From contig QHCE01000080.1 in the NCBI GenBank assembly GCA_003243955.1, positions 1 to 57,861 on the forward strand: 57,861 nucleotides of DNA, written 5' to 3'. Below the pieces are notes generated by a model. That model was not told the DNA's origin and made no database searches. It saw only the letters and a list, made by a program, of their open reading frames with translations. The position numbers were made by a program, and so were the translations under genes. Position 1 is the stretch's first letter. Every line of letters starts with the position of its first letter. This document shows, piece after piece, positions 6,675 to 56,275 of this stretch. This DNA comes from Acidimicrobiales bacterium. Lineage in GTDB: Bacteria; Actinomycetota; Actinomycetes; Mycobacteriales; QHCE01.

Positions 6675-7907
6675 GTGTCTAAGGCCGAGCGTGAGATAGT
6701 TTTCGTCGACGGAGTGCGCACACCCTTCGGCAAGGCTGGCCCGCGCGGCCTCTATACCCATACCCGCGCCGATGACCTAGTGGTTCGCTGTATCCGCGAG
6801 TTACTGCGGCGCAATCCCAGCCTGCCGCCAGAACGCGTTGCTGAGGTTGCTATCGCGGCCACCACTCAGACTGGAGACCAAGGGCTCACCATCGGGCGTT
6901 CGGCTGCGCTGCTAGCCGGCCTGCCCCGCAGCACGCCGGGCTATGCCATCGATCGAATGTGCGCCGGTAGCCTCACCGCGGTAACGACCATCGCCGGGGC
7001 TATCGCGCTGCGTGCCGTTGATGTCGGGATCGCTGGCGGGGTGGAGCATATGAGCCATCACCCCATGGGTGATGGGGTCGACCCCAACCCCCGGTTCGTG
7101 GCGGAACAACTGGTGGATGAATCCGCTCTGGTCATGGGTGCCACCGCCGAAAATCTGCACGACCACGACTCTTCGCTGACCCGAGAACGTGCTGACGCCT
7201 ACGCATACGCCAGCCAGCGCAAGTATGCGGCGGCGGTCGCGACCGGGCGCATCCAGCCAGACTTGGTTAGCATCGCTACCCGCGACCCTGAGCTCGGCTG
7301 GGGTTTGGCCACAGCCGACGAACAGCCACGGCCGGATACGACTGTCATCGCGTTGGCAGGGCTACGCACGCCGTTTCGTCCTCACGGCCGGGTGAGCGCG
7401 GGTAACTCCGCCGGCCTCAACGACGGCGCGACCGCCTGCTTGATCGCCGCCGCCGAGGCCGCCGCGGAGCTGGAGCTGCCAGCGGCAATGCGGCTGGTCT
7501 CCCATTCGTTCGCCGGGGTGGACCCCGAGGTGATGGGCATCGGCCCTATCCCCAGCACCGAAAAGGCTTTACACCTGGCCGGGCTGAGCATAAACGACAT
7601 CGGTTTGTTCGAACTCAATGAAGCATTTGCCGTGCAAGTGTTGATGTTCCTGCAACACTTCGGTATCGCCGACGACGACCCTCGGGTCAATCCGTGGGGC
7701 GGCGCACTAGCGATCGGCCATCCGCTGGCGGCTTCCGGCGTCCGGCTGATGACCCAGCTAGCACGGCAGTTCGAGCAACGCCCCAATGTTCGATACGGCC
7801 TGACCGCACTATGTGTGGGTTTGGGGATGGGCGCCGCCGTGATTTGGGAAAACCCACACTACGCCGACGATATGCGGCCAGATGCGACAAAGGTAGGTGC
7901 GCGATGA
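6675..7907 (+). CDS. fadA: Acetyl-CoA acyltransferase (thiolase)
   Basis: GTG start with upstream aaggag; FVDGVRTPFGKAGPRGLY, DRMCAGSLTAV, NPWGGALAIGHPLAASGVR, LCVGLGMGAAVI. Confidence 0.92.
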   Translation: MSKAEREIVFVDGVRTPFGKAGPRGLYTHTRADDLVVRCIRELLRRNPSLPPERVAEVAIAATTQTGDQGLTIGRSAALLAGLPRSTPGYAIDRMCAGSLTAVTTIAGAIALRAVDVGIAGGVEHMSHHPMGDGVDPNPRFVAEQLVDESALVMGATAENLHDHDSSLTRERADAYAYASQRKYAAAVATGRIQPDLVSIATRDPELGWGLATADEQPRPDTTVIALAGLRTPFRPHGRVSAGNSAGLNDGATACLIAAAEAAAELELPAAMRLVSHSFAGVDPEVMGIGPIPSTEKALHLAGLSINDIGLFELNEAFAVQVLMFLQHFGIADDDPRVNPWGGALAIGHPLAASGVRLMTQLARQFEQRPNVRYGLTALCVGLGMGAAVIWENPHYADDMRPDATKVGAR

Positions 7908-39003: not shown

Positions 39004-39993
39004 ATGACCGTACTCACTGACACTTCCGGTAAGGAAGTATTGGCCGCACTTAGCGCGGCACGCACGAGTAGAGGCGGCGGCGCGTCTGGACTTGCGTTAA
39101 CGCTGGTTGTCGTCGCCGAAACCGATGCGGTTGACAGCGCCACGAGCTCGGCTTGTGTGGCCGCACAGGCACATCCGTGCAGGCTCATTATGGTCACTCG
39201 CGAATCTCCGACTGATGCCAACTATCGATTAGACGCTGAGATCTGTGTCGACGGTCGGCTCGGCACCGGAGAAACAGTGATTCTGCGAATGCACGGTCGA
39301 CTTGCCTTACACGCCGAGTCGATCACGCTGCCGCTGCTCGCGCCGGATGTTCCCGTGGTGGCTTGGTGGCAAGGGGTACCACCGGAGAAGATCGCCCGTG
39401 ACCCGCTTGGGGTATTCGCCGACCGACGTGTCACCGACTGCTCGCAGCACCCCGATCCGCTGACAGCTCTGCACCAACGCGCGCAGGATTATCGTCCCGG
39501 CGACACCGATATAACGTGGACACGAACCACGTCATGGCGGTCGCTACTGGCCGATGCCTTCGACACGATCGACGCGCAACCCGCCTCGATCGAGGTTCAC
39601 GCGCCGGTCGGTAACGCTAGCGCCGCATTGCTAGCGGGATGGCTGCAAAGCCGGCTGGGGGTCGTGGTGCGGTGTGGTCTGCCAGCCGATGATGAACCGG
39701 AGATCAGCGGAGTCACCGTGACGCTCCACGACGGCTCAACACTGACCCTCAAGCGCGAATCACCAAACTCGGTTGTCGTCCAGCAGACAGGTGGCGCGGC
39801 ACAGCAGCTACCGCTGGACCAACCCAGCGTCTGCGACGCTCTCGCCGAGGAACTGCGCCACCTTGACCCAGACCAGCCGTACGCGGCCGCGCTGCAAACA
39901 GCTACCGGCGTAGCGGTGGCCGGCGCTGACTACAGCGCCGCGGCCCGGATACATGAGTGGCACGATCCCGAGTTATCGGCGCCGGCTTCATGA
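39004..39993 (+). CDS. opcA: Glucose-6-phosphate dehydrogenase assembly protein OpcA
   Basis: LTDTSGKEVLAALSAAR...PDVPVVAWWQGVPPEKIARDPLGVFADRRVTDCS; between zwf and pgl. Confidence 0.92.
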   Translation: MTVLTDTSGKEVLAALSAARTSRGGGASGLALTLVVVAETDAVDSATSSACVAAQAHPCRLIMVTRESPTDANYRLDAEICVDGRLGTGETVILRMHGRLALHAESITLPLLAPDVPVVAWWQGVPPEKIARDPLGVFADRRVTDCSQHPDPLTALHQRAQDYRPGDTDITWTRTTSWRSLLADAFDTIDAQPASIEVHAPVGNASAALLAGWLQSRLGVVVRCGLPADDEPEISGVTVTLHDGSTLTLKRESPNSVVVQQTGGAAQQLPLDQPSVCDALAEELRHLDPDQPYAAALQTATGVAVAGADYSAAARIHEWHDPELSAPAS

Positions 39994-40006
39994 GTGCGGT
40001 GTCGTC

Positions 40007-40810
40007 ATGAGCGGCACCCACGTCGTAGTCCATCCGAGCGGGCAGCTGTTGGCCGAAGCCGCGGCCGCACGGCTGCTGGCACGTCTAGCTGACGTACAAG
40101 CCGCACGCGGCGTAGCTAGCCTGGTATTAGCCGGGGGCGGCGTCGTAATACAAAGCTTGGCGGCGATGAAAGCTAGCCCCGCTCGGGATGCGGTGGACTG
40201 GAGCCGCGTTGACGTGTGGTGGAGTGACGAACGTTTTCTCGTCTCCGGTGATCCGCAGCGGAACGAGACCCAAGCTCGACGCGCACTGCTAGACGCAGTC
40301 GCACTCAACCCCGACCGAATACATCCGATGCCAGCTGCCGTGTCCAGCATGCCCGACGCTGAGGGCACGCTCGGCACAGCACCCCACAACAGCTCGGCCG
40401 ACGACGGTGCAGCCGCCTACCGCGACGAGCTGGCTCGGCAAGCAACACCTGGTAAACAGCTGCCGCAGTTCGATGTCTTACTTCTGGGGGTCGGTCCCGA
40501 GGGACACACCGCTTCGATCTTCCCCGAATCACCGGCGGTGCACGAACAGCGGCCAGTCGTCGCGGTACACCGCTGCCCCAAGCCGCCGCCAACCCGGATC
40601 ACCATGACGCTGCCGACGATTTGCAGTGCGGAAGAAGTGTGGTTGCTCGCCGTCGGAGAGCCCAAGGCTGCCGCCATCGGGATGGCGTTGAGCGGGGCGG
40701 GTGAAGCACAGATACCGGCGGCAGGGGCACGCGGCCAGCTGCGGACGCTATGGCTACTGGATCGAGCCGCGGCCGCTGAAGTTCCAGCGCAGCTGCGCAC
40801 CCCGTGGTAA
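40007..40810 (+). CDS. pgl: 6-phosphogluconolactonase
   Basis: VASLVLAGGGVVIQSL, VDVWWSDERFLVSGDPQRNE, LLGVGPEGHTASIFPESPAV. Confidence 0.93.
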   Translation: MSGTHVVVHPSGQLLAEAAAARLLARLADVQAARGVASLVLAGGGVVIQSLAAMKASPARDAVDWSRVDVWWSDERFLVSGDPQRNETQARRALLDAVALNPDRIHPMPAAVSSMPDAEGTLGTAPHNSSADDGAAAYRDELARQATPGKQLPQFDVLLLGVGPEGHTASIFPESPAVHEQRPVVAVHRCPKPPPTRITMTLPTICSAEEVWLLAVGEPKAAAIGMALSGAGEAQIPAAGARGQLRTLWLLDRAAAAEVPAQLRTPW

Positions 40811-40827
40811 CACTGGCCGTGGCAGCA
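40774..40827. repeat. pgl 3'-end direct repeat, copy 1
   Basis: Hand alignment to 42649-42704: about 50 of 54 aligned positions plus one 2-nt indel. Confidence 0.85.
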
Positions 40828-41123
40828 CGGCTAACGCCTTGCGGGGCGCTCACAATTCCACAGTCGGATCGTCCATGCCACACTACGATTCACTCCTGGC
40901 AAAGAAGGTGCTCTTGTCCGCCGAGAAAATGCACGCCGACGAGGTGGCCGTACTACCAGAACACCAACCCTGCGAGCGCGATGAGTGCCAGGCACGTAAT
41001 TGATGAAGTCCTCGCCGAGCACCAGCACACCGCATGAAACGGATCCACCGCTTGGTAAGGGTTGGCTGGCCACGTTCGCAGGTGTTTGACTTGTTCTACT
41101 GCAAAATCAGGCTTTCTTGGTTA

Positions 41124-41244
41124 CGAGGTGGTGCACGATAAAAATTTTTGCACAAGTTCTCTTAACTTGGCAAAAACACGCTGCCGCTGAACTCGTCGTT
41201 TCATCGACGATGATGGCAGTAGCTTGCAATCGTGCACCATGTCG
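41124..41244 (+). mobile_element. MITE-like element family 1, copy B
   Basis: 121 bp; TIRs cgaggtggtgcacgat / atcgtgcaccatgtcg; flanked by TTA (41121-41123, 41245-41247). Confidence 0.92.
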
Positions 41245-41311
41245 TTAGGCAATCCGGGTTGATGTCCCTGACAAGGTGAATCATCGGCGTTCAATGAGAT
41301 CGGAGATGAGC

Positions 41312-41878
41312 ATGGGTAGAGTCATTGTGACGGAGTTTGTTTCCCTCGACGGGGTCATGGAGGCTCCCGGTGGCGAGCCGGGATACGCACATTCGGGATG
41401 GACGATCCCCTACCACGATCCCGAGCAAATGAAGTACAAGCTAGACGAGACCCAGGCAGCACAAGTGCTGCTGCTAGGGCGAAAGACCTATCAGGGGTTC
41501 GCCGAGGCATGGCCCGAACACGACGACGAGGCTGGATTCGCCCAGAAGATGAACACAATGCCGAAGTTCGTCGTCACCACTACCTTGACCGACCTCGAGT
41601 GGCAGAACTCGACTGTGCTCCCGGGTCCGATCCAGACTTCGATACCTCGGCTGCGGGAGGAGATCGACGGGGAAATCCTGGTCCACGGTAGCCGGACACT
41701 GGTGCACTCATTGCTCCGGAACGGACTCATCGACGAGTTGCGGCTGATGATCTTTCCCGTAATCCTCGGCTCAGGTGCCCGGATCTTCCCGGACTCACCG
41801 GATGCGATCGCCCTCGAACTGGTCGATCACCGTCGATACGCCTCAGGCGTCGCGGTGCTCACCTATCACCCGCGATGA
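41312..41878 (+). CDS. Dihydrofolate reductase-like / RibD C-terminal domain protein
   Basis: MGRVIVTEFVSLDGVMEAPGGEP, LLLGRKTYQGFAEAWP, GSRTLVHSLLRNGLIDELRLMIFPVILGSG. Confidence 0.93.
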   Translation: MGRVIVTEFVSLDGVMEAPGGEPGYAHSGWTIPYHDPEQMKYKLDETQAAQVLLLGRKTYQGFAEAWPEHDDEAGFAQKMNTMPKFVVTTTLTDLEWQNSTVLPGPIQTSIPRLREEIDGEILVHGSRTLVHSLLRNGLIDELRLMIFPVILGSGARIFPDSPDAIALELVDHRRYASGVAVLTYHPR

Positions 41879-41962
41879 CCTGTCGCTCGCCCCGCGGAGT
41901 GCTAGCGTGGTTGAAATCTTAACTGTAGATACCGAGCCGGAAGGCTCCGTAAGGAAAATGCT

Positions 41963-42595
41963 ATGCCGGACGGACCAGACGACAAAGAGTGGGTCCGTAA
42001 GTTTGTTTGTGACCTTTGGGGGCCAGAGGTCACAAACAGTTTCACCAACAATCAGCTCCCGCTCCTAAGATTCTATGACAGCGTTCGTGACGGTGACATA
42101 CTTCGCGGCGACCGCGTGGGAGTTTGGCATGTCATCTATAACCGTTATAACGAGGATAAGGATAGGGCTCCGAATCCAATATGGGATGCGGCTGTATGCG
42201 TGAGCGGACGACGCAGCTGCGCCGTAGTATTTCCAGACCTTGTAGGTTCCACCCTTACTGTGGATGATGTCGGCTGCCAGGTTTACGTCCTAGGAAGGGT
42301 CCATAACAGCGAGATAAAGGCGACGGGCCGTGACTCGCAGGTCCATCTATTAGGACCGGTGAGCGGCACTTCTAGGATTCGGGTCGACCGTTACACCACC
42401 CTCCATGACAAGGAACCGGGCGTGATCTTCCGAGGCGAGCGAGAGCCAACGCCTGGCCATCTGCGGGAGCTTGTGCTGCCGCCCCTACGACCGCTTTTTT
42501 CAGCTGCCGATCTGCCCCCAAAACGGCCACGTTCGCCGTTACCCTCCGCGGCGTGGCGGCTGTTATCTGGAGGAAACCATGGGCGGCGCCGCTAA
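41963..42595 (+). CDS. Hypothetical protein
   Basis: 210-aa ORF with upstream aaggaa; no family recognised. Confidence 0.6.
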   Translation: MPDGPDDKEWVRKFVCDLWGPEVTNSFTNNQLPLLRFYDSVRDGDILRGDRVGVWHVIYNRYNEDKDRAPNPIWDAAVCVSGRRSCAVVFPDLVGSTLTVDDVGCQVYVLGRVHNSEIKATGRDSQVHLLGPVSGTSRIRVDRYTTLHDKEPGVIFRGEREPTPGHLRELVLPPLRPLFSAADLPPKRPRSPLPSAAWRLLSGGNHGRRR

Positions 42596-42648
42596 GGAAC
42601 GTGGCTTGTCCATTTCACGGGTTGAGCTGTGATGTCAGGTCGTTGCAG

Positions 42649-42704
42649 CGCTGGAGTTCCAACGCGCAGCTGCGCACTCCGTGGTAGCGCTGGCCGTGGC
42701 AGCA
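42649..42704. repeat. pgl 3'-end direct repeat, copy 2 (reads ...AQLRTPW*)
   Basis: cgctggagttccaacgcgcagctgcgcactccgtggtagcgctggccgtggcagca. Confidence 0.85.
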
Positions 42705-42917
42705 AACCCCGAACTAAGCCTCCTCAGGCTTTAGAAGCTGTCGGGAAATCTCGCGTACCTGCTGCACAGCGGCAGGTACTGGCATGGCGGCGTTTTCTGG
42801 TGGCGCCGATGGTGGTGTTGTGCCAGATGGCGACAGCCATGCTAGGAGTCGCTGGCCGATGCGGGCAATAGACTGGCGACCAGCGCTGTATACCTCTGTT
42901 TGTGGACGTTGCCCTTA

Positions 42918-43038
42918 CGAGGTGGGGCACGATAAAAATTTTTGCACAAGTTCTCTTAACTTGGCAAAAACACGCTGCCGCTGAACTCGTCGTTTCATCG
43001 ATGATGATGGCAGTAGCTTGCAATCGTGCACCATGTCG
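42918..43038 (+). mobile_element. MITE-like element family 1, copy C
   Basis: 121 bp, 2 differences from copy B by eye; flanked by TTA (42915-42917, 43039-43041). Confidence 0.92.
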
Positions 43039-43965
43039 TTAGATCGAAAGTGCTGACCAACAGCGGCTTGTGGGATTCCAGGTTCCCGGATCAGCATGGC
43101 TCAATAGTGGAGTGACGAACGCATCGGCTGCTACGGTTGCATCATGAAGCGTTTGACAACCCCGTAATCCGACTACATCTGCAGCCGCAGCGGGATAGTT
43201 CTGTCTCCAAGAAGAAAGGGCGGGAATCTCAAACCGCCTTGGCATTCGCAAATCGGTGCCGATACCGATTCGTCGTCTCTGCTCACTATTCAGGGCAACT
43301 TGTACAGCGCGACCAATGATAGGTTCCTGTTGCGAGATCAGCAGTAGATCGGCCAGATCTCGGTATCGAGTAGACGGGCTGGCGCCGTAAGAACGCCAGT
43401 GCCACTCATACATTGCACAGATCTTGTCAGCAAGGTGGTCCGGGAGCGGATATAGCAGTATCTTGGGCCAATCATTCGGCCAAGGCAGCGGTACAGTCGG
43501 TTCAAGCTGCACGGCCATGGGTTCCGCAGTCGGCATACGACGAACAACCAGGTCCACGTTGGCTGTGTCCATCTTCCGGTTCCCGAGTAGGACATCAAAC
43601 GTCATCTGAGCGCAGTCGGCTTCATCTGCGTGACGCGCCGGCCGCGTTTCGACGAACGCAAAGTAGTCGCCCAGATCTCTATGTGCTGCGCACCGAAGCG
43701 TGTTAACTGCCTCGTTCAGGTCGTCAAGTCCAGGCCTAATTAGGTCAATATCTCGGCTATAGCGCGCCTCACCCGGATAACGCACTAGCAGCGCCTGGCC
43801 CCCTTTCAACATCCAGCCTGGTTCTTGAAAAACTCGGGCCAGTAAGCGTTGAAAGTAGAAGTGTCGCGTCACATCTTGGGTATTTATTCCGAGTCGGCGA
43901 GCAACGCCTTGGGCTCGAGACTTCAACGCCGCTTCTAATGCCGATGGTGTCTCGTACATATTCAC
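43039..43965 (-). CDS. AbiEii-type nucleotidyltransferase toxin
   Basis: QEPGWMLKGGQALLVRYPGEARYSRDIDLIRP nucleotidyltransferase motif; HLADKICAMYEWH. Confidence 0.92.
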   Translation of the reverse strand: MNMYETPSALEAALKSRAQGVARRLGINTQDVTRHFYFQRLLARVFQEPGWMLKGGQALLVRYPGEARYSRDIDLIRPGLDDLNEAVNTLRCAAHRDLGDYFAFVETRPARHADEADCAQMTFDVLLGNRKMDTANVDLVVRRMPTAEPMAVQLEPTVPLPWPNDWPKILLYPLPDHLADKICAMYEWHWRSYGASPSTRYRDLADLLLISQQEPIIGRAVQVALNSEQRRRIGIGTDLRMPRRFEIPALSSWRQNYPAAAADVVGLRGCQTLHDATVAADAFVTPLLSHADPGTWNPTSRCWSALSI

Positions 43966-44981
43966 TACTGACCAATATAGTCTTTGGACCTGCTCCCCTT
44001 TGGCCGTTTTCGCGACCTAACCGCAAGGGGTCCAATGCCGGGTATTGCTGAGGCTGCCATCCGCTGGATGGAAGGAACCATAAATTGAGATCCTAGATTG
44101 CGGGTTACTTCCACAAGAGCGGGGATAACGGCTAACTTCTGGATTGTCTCCATGGTGGAAGGGATAGTCACCGAAGTGCTGATTCTGCGGATTGCCTCAG
44201 TAAACGCAGGGTCGTCGCCAAGAGAATGGAGAGCTTCAAGGCCGGGGTTGCCTACTAACGCGAGCTTGTAGCCCTCAACGAGTCCCGTGAGGGCGGCCAT
44301 ACTGGTACTTTCACGGACGCTATCGCACTCAAGCCGTTGACCAGCTTGCTCGACCAGGGCGCTCAATAGCTCGTCTCCCGAGGCTTCAGCAAGCGCATAC
44401 TTGGGGGCGAATCTGGAAATCCGCTCCGCTAACGAATCTAGATCCACCAGGTTTCGTCGCTCTGCGTTAGCGATGACGCCGCCAACATGGCCAGCGTCGG
44501 CGCCATTCCGCATCAAGTCCATTACAGTCCGTGTCACCGTCGTAACCGGTAGGCCATCGACGATCGTGACATCCTCAGGGTCAAGCCGCTCAATATGTAG
44601 CCGGATCCCGAGCTCACGGGTCGTTCGCCGGCGCGGGACCGTCAGCTCAGTTTCCGGGGCTGGAATGTCTCCCAACTCGTGCACTAAGCAGGCAGACCGG
44701 TGCGAAACTACCCCATCATCGACACCCAACCCGGTCCGTCTCCACGCTGGTCGGCTCGGATCAAGACGCAGCCAGGCCACCCGGCTCTCCAGATGCGAAG
44801 GCGGTGACGCACCTGTCACCCGATACACACCTCTGCCGACGTTCTGCAGTAGCTGTGCCTGGCATAACCGCAGTTGGGTCACCCGGTCGACGCTACGAGC
44901 GGCAGCTTGCGCTGCTGTGACTAAACCGGCTTGATCCGCAGCTATTTCAGCTAAAGCTCGGAATGCTTCATCTCGCTTCAT
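43965..44981 (-). CDS. AbiEi-type antitoxin (winged-helix N-terminus)
   Basis: LAEIAADQAGLVTAAQAAARSVDRVTQLRLCQAQLLQNVGRGVYRV, GLPVTTVTRTVMDLMR; overlaps toxin start. Confidence 0.9.
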   Translation of the reverse strand: MKRDEAFRALAEIAADQAGLVTAAQAAARSVDRVTQLRLCQAQLLQNVGRGVYRVTGASPPSHLESRVAWLRLDPSRPAWRRTGLGVDDGVVSHRSACLVHELGDIPAPETELTVPRRRTTRELGIRLHIERLDPEDVTIVDGLPVTTVTRTVMDLMRNGADAGHVGGVIANAERRNLVDLDSLAERISRFAPKYALAEASGDELLSALVEQAGQRLECDSVRESTSMAALTGLVEGYKLALVGNPGLEALHSLGDDPAFTEAIRRISTSVTIPSTMETIQKLAVIPALVEVTRNLGSQFMVPSIQRMAASAIPGIGPLAVRSRKRPKGSRSKDYIGQ

Positions 44982-45040
44982 ACAGCAAATATAACACTTA
45001 TTTGCAGCAATAGTTACGGATGAATGAAACTTTTGCTGTA
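44981..45040. promoter_or_regulatory. Nested inverted repeats upstream of abiEi-like gene (candidate operator)
   Basis: tacagcaaa (44981-44989) / tttgctgta (45032-45040); gcaaata (44985-44991) / tatttgc (44999-45005). Confidence 0.55.
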
Positions 45041-45242
45041 AGCAGTTTGGTTGGCTTTCTAGTATCAAACTACCGGTGACCAGCTTGCCATCCCCGAGGT
45101 TGTGGTAGGGGTAGCCGAACCTCTGCCGAGACGCAGAATATTAGAGTTATCAAGGACACTGTATGGGTGAATCCGGAGGACACCGGCCATGCAGCTATCA
45201 GACTTACAGGAAATAGGCCGATTCGGGTCCTCAGGCTAAACG

Positions 45243-45590
45243 TTAAACCTTTCCGCTGCGGCGGGCACGCAGGTTAGCCAGTGCCTCTTCCAATAGGGCT
45301 TTACCATCGGCGTCGCTGCGACGTTCCCGTACGTAAGCCAAATGGGTTTTATACGGCTCGTTGCGTGGAATCGGTGGGGGCGCCGTAGCGTCTTTTCCGG
45401 CCGGAAGCCCACAACGCGCGCAGTCCCAGGAATCTGGCTCCGAGACATCGGCCGCGAACGACGGCCGAGTGATATGGCCGTTGGCGCAATAGAAATCGAT
45501 GCGACGCCGCGGAGCGGAGTCACCACGCTCGGACTCACCCATGGGGCCAGCGCCGACGCGCGTACCCCGAATAGCAGTACCACCTGCCAC
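45243..45590 (-). CDS. rbpA: RNA polymerase-binding protein RbpA
   Basis: GTRVGAGPMGESERGDSAPRRRIDFYCANGHITRPSFAADVSEPDSWDCARCGLPAG. Confidence 0.95.
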   Translation of the reverse strand: MAGGTAIRGTRVGAGPMGESERGDSAPRRRIDFYCANGHITRPSFAADVSEPDSWDCARCGLPAGKDATAPPPIPRNEPYKTHLAYVRERRSDADGKALLEEALANLRARRSGKV

Positions 45591-45658
45591 GATCAGGTTC
45601 TCCTTTACTCAGGTATTTCAACCGCAGAGGGCCGATTGCTGGGGATGCAAGCGCTGAT

Positions 45659-45898
45659 TTATGCGGCTTTCATCAGCAGCCCGAGACCGATCACGCTTGC
45701 GGTCCAAATTAGCGCCACGGCAACGGTAAACCGGTCAAGGTTTTTCTCCGCGATAGAGGAGCCGGAGAGGTTGGAGCCCATACCTCCACCAAACATGCTG
45801 GACAATCCGCCGCCCTTACCGCGATGCAGCAAAACAAAGAGCACAACCAGGGCGCTGGACACGATCAGTGTCACAGTGAGCACGGCAACCATGTCCAC
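45659..45898 (-). CDS. secG: Preprotein translocase subunit SecG
   Basis: 79 aa; FVLLHRGKGGGLSSMFGGGMGSNLSGSSIAEKNLDRFT. Confidence 0.95.
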   Translation of the reverse strand: MDMVAVLTVTLIVSSALVVLFVLLHRGKGGGLSSMFGGGMGSNLSGSSIAEKNLDRFTVAVALIWTASVIGLGLLMKAA

Positions 45899-56140: not shown

Positions 56141-56275
56141 TAGGGCATCTGCCAAGGCCGCAGGAGCGCACCGCCTACGCCACACCTATGCCGGCTTGCA
56201 AGCTGCGCCGGGCATAGGCAAGGCGACTGCCCGGGTGCGGGTGCCCCGTGCGAGAACAGCGCCGGCAGGGACCTA
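56141..56275. repeat. Short dispersed repeat family 2, copy 2
   Basis: Ends match copy at 915-1005; longer, different interior. Confidence 0.6.

Follow-up and report, generated by a model that had tools for sequence, protein, structure and literature searches.

Gene content between pgl and rbpA

The window, meaning the whole stretch of 57,861 nucleotides that was analysed, is one entire contig of a draft genome that totals 2.42 Mb and comprises 91 contigs. It carries on the forward strand an intact pgl gene (39953..40810), encoding 6-phosphogluconolactonase (Pfam Glucosamine_iso, 1.9e-65), with orthologs present in 41 of 41 genomes. On the reverse strand lies a gene which we take to be rbpA from gene order and its sequence (45243..45590); a protein 50-80% identical to its product is encoded next to pgl in relatives. 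The two genes are separated by 4,432 nt (40811..45242), occupied in order by a MITE, a RibD_C gene, a 210-aa orphan, a relic of the pgl end, two more MITE sequences and an AbiEii/AbiEi pair.

The RibD_C/DHFR-like reductase gene (41276..41878, forward strand; the start may be 41312) was identified by Pfam (PF01872, 1.8e-24). It belongs to a widespread family, its best relative is 55% identical, and it is the sole copy in the host genome. The orphan (41963..42595, forward strand) is an open reading frame with no assigned function: no match was found in Pfam, NCBIfam, PADLOC, PHROGs or PDB, nor among phages, plasmids, IMG/VR and 399 genomes of the order. Its codon GC pattern resembles that of the adjacent genes. 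On the reverse strand follow genes for an AbiEii nucleotidyltransferase toxin (43039..43965; PF08843, 5.9e-22; PADLOC AbiEii, 5e-89) and an AbiEi antitoxin/regulator (43965..45068; PF13338, 4.6e-6; PADLOC AbiEi, 2.2e-90). The 293 nt leading to the first MITE (40828-41120) match nothing and are possibly the remains of a gene.

Two of the MITE sequences belong to one family, with about 20 copies genome-wide; where both ends are intact, the copies are mostly flanked on both sides by TTA or TAA, the only targets seen in this family. The first copy (41121..41248, forward strand) was delimited by alignment with its flanks and lies just upstream of the RibD_C gene; the second (42915..43042, forward strand) is 98% identical to it. 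Each has TTA on both sides, and each is the other's closest copy. Composite transposition by the two MITEs is the less likely reading: both are bordered by TTA separately and the family is found singly elsewhere, so that independent insertions are likelier, although the close match between these two copies is noted. The second copy ends exactly on the TAA stop of the AbiEii gene (43039-43042), and a copy at another locus (L064) likewise sits at a stop. If a MITE entered a TAA stop and duplicated its 3 bp, the stop would be restored. The third sequence (42730..42771, forward strand) is a terminal-end remnant of a second, MITE-like family with GAGGCTGTCGGG terminal repeats, and has 93-97% matches at C70:50663 and C61:9243. 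Members of this family are about 170 nt long and flanked by TA (C70:50663, C61:9243; L075, L076).

Duplication of the pgl 3' end

The final 37 nt of pgl, with the 17 nt that follow the gene (40774..40827, forward strand), recur further downstream at 42649..42704 on the same strand. The alignment comprises 50 identities over 56 columns with one 2-nt gap, and its score is 42, compared with a best score of 16 among about 20,000 random window pairs. This agrees with the original prediction, which had counted about 50 matches in 54 positions with one 2-nt indel. The likeness stops sharply at 40827 and 42704, and the spacers past both points are unrelated. When the genome was searched with the pgl end, the second copy was recovered with E = 2.9e-14 and no other real copy was found in the genome. 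A chance origin of the similarity is excluded. An assembly artefact might be suspected in a draft of 91 contigs; since 6 columns differ, the copies are not one sequence read twice, and many similar loci lie on other contigs, so that chance or artefact together are barely credible as an explanation. A terminator common to both places was also rejected as the cause: the hairpin GCCGTG-GCAG-CACGGC found 3' of pgl is cut in the copy, and a terminator scan called no terminator at this hairpin.

The second copy had been described as still reading AQLRTPW*. The letters do read so; the 2-nt insertion, however, shifts them relative to the reading frame of the pgl sequence that precedes them, and the right-hand end is thus a relic. 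All the elements announced between the copies, i.e. the RibD_C/DHFR-like gene, the unmatched 210-aa frame and the MITE at 41121-41248, were found there.

The pgl-rbpA interval in relatives

In G001, the only genome of the same family that was compared, pgl and rbpA are tail to tail about 55 nt apart. The same arrangement, with 19-611 nt between the genes, exists in 19 of 36 other relatives. Four of the 36 have a pgl-rbpA gap of 1.9-6 kb devoid of RibD_C and AbiE genes, and in the remaining ones rbpA was not found adjoining pgl. The comparison of gene orders thus suggests that the adjacency is probably ancestral and that 40811-45242 is an insertion in the host lineage, the empty site being deduced from these more distant genomes, all outside the host genus. 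The four relatives with a large gap belong to other families and carry insertions of their own (L097 in G011, L094, L095 and L096), which makes this gap between convergent genes a recurrent insertion site.

It had been proposed that the duplicated pgl ends bound an island, and that relatives might have pgl followed directly by the sequence after position 42704. What follows pgl in relatives is instead rbpA, whose end in the host is at 45243. The proposal holds in that lineage-specific cargo lies behind pgl and is marked by a duplicated 3' end. It does not hold for the boundary, as the whole insertion extends past the relic to rbpA. The relic lies inside the gap, with the MITE remnants and the AbiEii/AbiEi genes beyond it, so that only the portion with the RibD_C gene and the orphan falls between the two pgl ends. 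The AbiE genes probably arrived at this site in a separate event.

Search for an integrase

Integrative elements usually duplicate a gene 3' end and a few flanking bases around their cargo, leaving the gene intact. The pgl locus has this anatomy, and the original prediction had invoked a site-specific island. We found no integrase or recombinase gene in 40811-45242. The search for an integrase elsewhere that uses the pgl core was equally negative among the tyrosine recombinases, the class covered: the core shares at most 11 nt with the ten matches in the genome. A tRNA or RNA target was ruled out, as the window contains no tRNA and positions 39900-45700 have no Rfam match. Moreover, many different gene ends are duplicated alike across the genome (see below), as a single integrase would not do, and an integrase-made island is disfavoured.

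A variant of this explanation is that the locus is what remains of an integrative element whose attachment site was the pgl 3' end and whose integrase was later lost, akin to elements that carry their own version of a gene end and rebuild the gene with it. Loss of an integrase would be invisible today, and the synonymous differences reported below between copies at other loci would fit an element bringing its own gene end. We nevertheless consider this origin very unlikely, in view of the insert without recombinase, the short core shared with tyrosine-recombinase loci, the tiny cargo at pgl and the number of unrelated gene ends duplicated around small cargos devoid of integrase.

Similar duplications across the genome

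Sampled stretches of the host genome (1.36 of 2.42 Mb) were compared with themselves, retaining repeat pairs 0.3-6 kb apart and excluding any repeat present more than 3 times in these stretches. The 1.36 Mb contained 19 direct single-locus pairs and 1 inverted pair (p = 4e-5). The direct repeats are 39-343 nt long and 0.6-5.3 kb apart. The rate in the host, 14 direct pairs per Mb, compares with 0 per Mb in G001 (no pair in 0.35 Mb) and 5 per Mb in G004 (2 pairs in 0.40 Mb; p = 0.007, controls combined), an enrichment that is provisional because it is based on two control genomes, while 3 direct pairs occurred in 0.16 Mb drawn from a mixture of other relatives.

Gene contexts, taken from simple open reading frame calls, indicate that ten loci including pgl duplicate a gene 3' end around a cargo, the duplicated ends measuring 56 nt at pgl and 45-254 nt at the other loci. 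The cargo often consists of toxin, antitoxin or defence-like genes. Besides pgl, with its RibD_C gene and orphan, the genes and cargos are as follows: nuoN, with a 222-aa gene weakly matching PD-T4-5; an MFS gene adjoining secA, with a 206-aa gene; a PF20704 gene, with a DUF5615 PIN-like gene; a 904-aa gene, with an arginase family gene and a PDC-S27-like ATPase; a DUF4037 gene, with MFS, cupin and other genes, and a PIN gene past the relic; a 488-aa gene, with a RidA/RraA fusion; a PIN gene, with an ATPase and HTH proteins; a 96-aa gene, with a Gp49-type toxin and an HTH gene; and a 199-aa gene, with a Fic gene.

These observations bear on the possibility that the pgl end and the genes downstream were doubled head to tail within the genome and that one copy was later mostly deleted. 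The repeats are indeed direct, local and varied in length and identity, and one locus (L114) holds two collinear repeat pairs, as expected of a larger duplication in decay. At the ten loci, however, the relics are at gene 3' ends and not anywhere in genes. At pgl we rejected a larger duplicated unit, since the spacers are unrelated and, MITEs apart, the genome holds no second copy of any other part of the 4.4-kb stretch. Tandem duplication also leaves the absence of the cargo from relatives unexplained, and the synonymous bias described in the next section is hard to obtain from a decaying fragment. Taken overall, such a history is rather unlikely, although for pgl itself a duplicative rearrangement, the alternative offered by the original prediction, is a possible origin.

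Divergence between the copies

Over the ten 3'-end loci, 65 of the 102 coding differences between copies fall at third codon positions. This share exceeds both the 1/3 expected from position alone (p = 3e-10) and a share of 0.45 (p = 1e-4), the latter being our rough figure allowing for synonymous drift in the living copy. At the four best loci (L120, L122, L128 and L210) we counted 32 synonymous and 9 nonsynonymous codon changes. The bias is absent at L119 and L233 and mixed at L235. On the premise that a relic which began as an exact self-copy of the gene end would decay irrespective of codon position, the synonymous excess at the best loci argues that both copies lived as genes, in separate lineages, before they were joined. 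There, to judge from codon positions, one of the gene ends was probably imported with the cargo from the functional gene of a relative. The two pgl copies have only three coding differences, and an imported end at pgl may be supposed only by analogy with the other loci.

The same counts weigh on a scheme in which the host supplied both copies: the gene end suffers a staggered break, fill-in of this break duplicates the target, and foreign DNA is captured by end joining. Ku is present, the pairs at pgl, L114 and L233 do not contradict this scheme, and the duplications are long and variable, like those reported for some restriction-modification insertions (PMC3874152). Copies that were identical at first should however differ largely by decay of the relic, whereas four loci differ mainly synonymously. 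We regard this scheme as unlikely overall, though it may hold for single loci, pgl among them.

A possible route of capture

The reading that we favour, with a probability of roughly 0.5, is that the pgl locus is the decayed scar left when foreign DNA was captured by recombining within a short gene end that it shared with the host. Besides the cargo, the incoming molecule would have contained sequence similar to the 3' end of pgl. A single homologous crossover there would place the cargo behind pgl and leave a direct, partial duplicate of the pgl end beyond the cargo; the DNA would either have been circular by then (single-crossover integration) or have had its second end joined illegitimately. 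The host has a gene for Ku, a protein able in principle to close linear DNA into a circle or to make the illegitimate joint. The intact pgl would be kept and the redundant end would decay, while MITEs and the AbiE pair would gather between pgl and rbpA. Capture of this kind would also account for about nine comparable scars at other places in the part of the genome sampled, gene 3' ends perhaps predominating because a duplication there spares the gene. Observed are the duplication, the lineage-specific insertion, its lack of an integrase, the genome-wide class and the third-codon bias, from which we infer the crossover, the donor, an intermediate that was circular or joined, and the succession of steps.

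Recombination through short gene ends is favoured as the most economical account of a partial direct duplication beside an intact gene, with imported cargo and no integrase. The 56-nt relic of pgl is short for homologous recombination; it may have been trimmed. More tentatively, and as a doubtful generalization, the lineage might repeatedly take up cassettes for toxin-antitoxin, defence and metabolic functions without an integrase, by a route in which short gene ends homologous to those of relatives serve as landing sites, with the synonymous differences in scars genome-wide pointing to the donors.

Relation to known systems

In its anatomy the locus matches the insertion with long target duplication, reportedly treated by Nobusato et al. 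in 2000 (Gene 259:99); the instances are new. Common to both are a small cargo, a direct and variable duplication of about 100 bp, and no need of a transposase. The cargo there is often selfish (restriction-modification), to which the toxin, antitoxin and AbiE-like or other defence-like genes at several loci here may be comparable, whereas the pgl ends enclose a RibD_C gene and an orphan. At pgl the direct duplication around the inserted genes is 56 nt. The host here is an actinobacterium and not Helicobacter, the copies have diverged, mostly synonymously in the best cases, no restriction-modification gene was seen among the cargos, and the scars were found within one genome instead of by comparison of two strains. 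Variable duplications of about 100 bp around mobile genes are reported to have been first seen in Helicobacter (PMC3874152, PMC1643837, PMC2749054).

Homology-facilitated illegitimate recombination or single-crossover capture has been invoked for Vibrio effector modules (PMC5361080). Such integration has been observed directly in E. coli, where a single crossover of a circular molecule was the main way in which DNA with a lacZ end became integrated, and partial duplications of 109-950 bp remained in most cases (PMC3240628); the ends in our host, of 39-254 nt, are mostly shorter. As at the present loci, a short homology at one place anchors the foreign DNA. Those systems are laboratory constructs or effector loci, in contrast to the present case, where the homologous step is inferred.

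Integrative elements are also known at gene 3' ends, for example prophage-like elements in icd. They too have the 3' end duplicated at the far end and leave a functional gene, but here there is no integrase, the cargo is one to a few genes, and many target genes are used in one genome.

Taken by itself, the pgl locus is an ordinary old insertion. What is added is a genome-wide count of such scars in an actinobacterium of uncultured type, together with codon-position evidence for imported ends. Small foreign genes without an adjoining integrase or transposon are common in bacteria, and their route of entry is usually unknown. Scars that record the landing site and, through synonymous differences, the foreign end would make this route testable by genome comparison and would extend such tests beyond the few species already studied.

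Other repeats

The scan also gave repeats of other kinds. L189 is a duplicated gene 5' end; L209 and L240 are probably internal paralogous repeats; L187 and the L119 repeat at 7114 are intergenic or unclear. The latter, a 45-nt direct repeat of intergenic sequence (L119, 7114-9719), encloses an RNA ligase and polynucleotide kinase/phosphatase pair. Three loci look tRNA-derived, with partial tRNA-like sequences 1.3-2 kb apart (L124 at 710 and 3071, L212 at 48 and 1420, L235 at 2196 and 3554), and could be ordinary tRNA attachment sites or copies of tRNA genes. A 39-nt sequence is present at both ends of the contig analysed here (915-952 and 56141-56179), the two occurrences being 95% identical and 55 kb apart.
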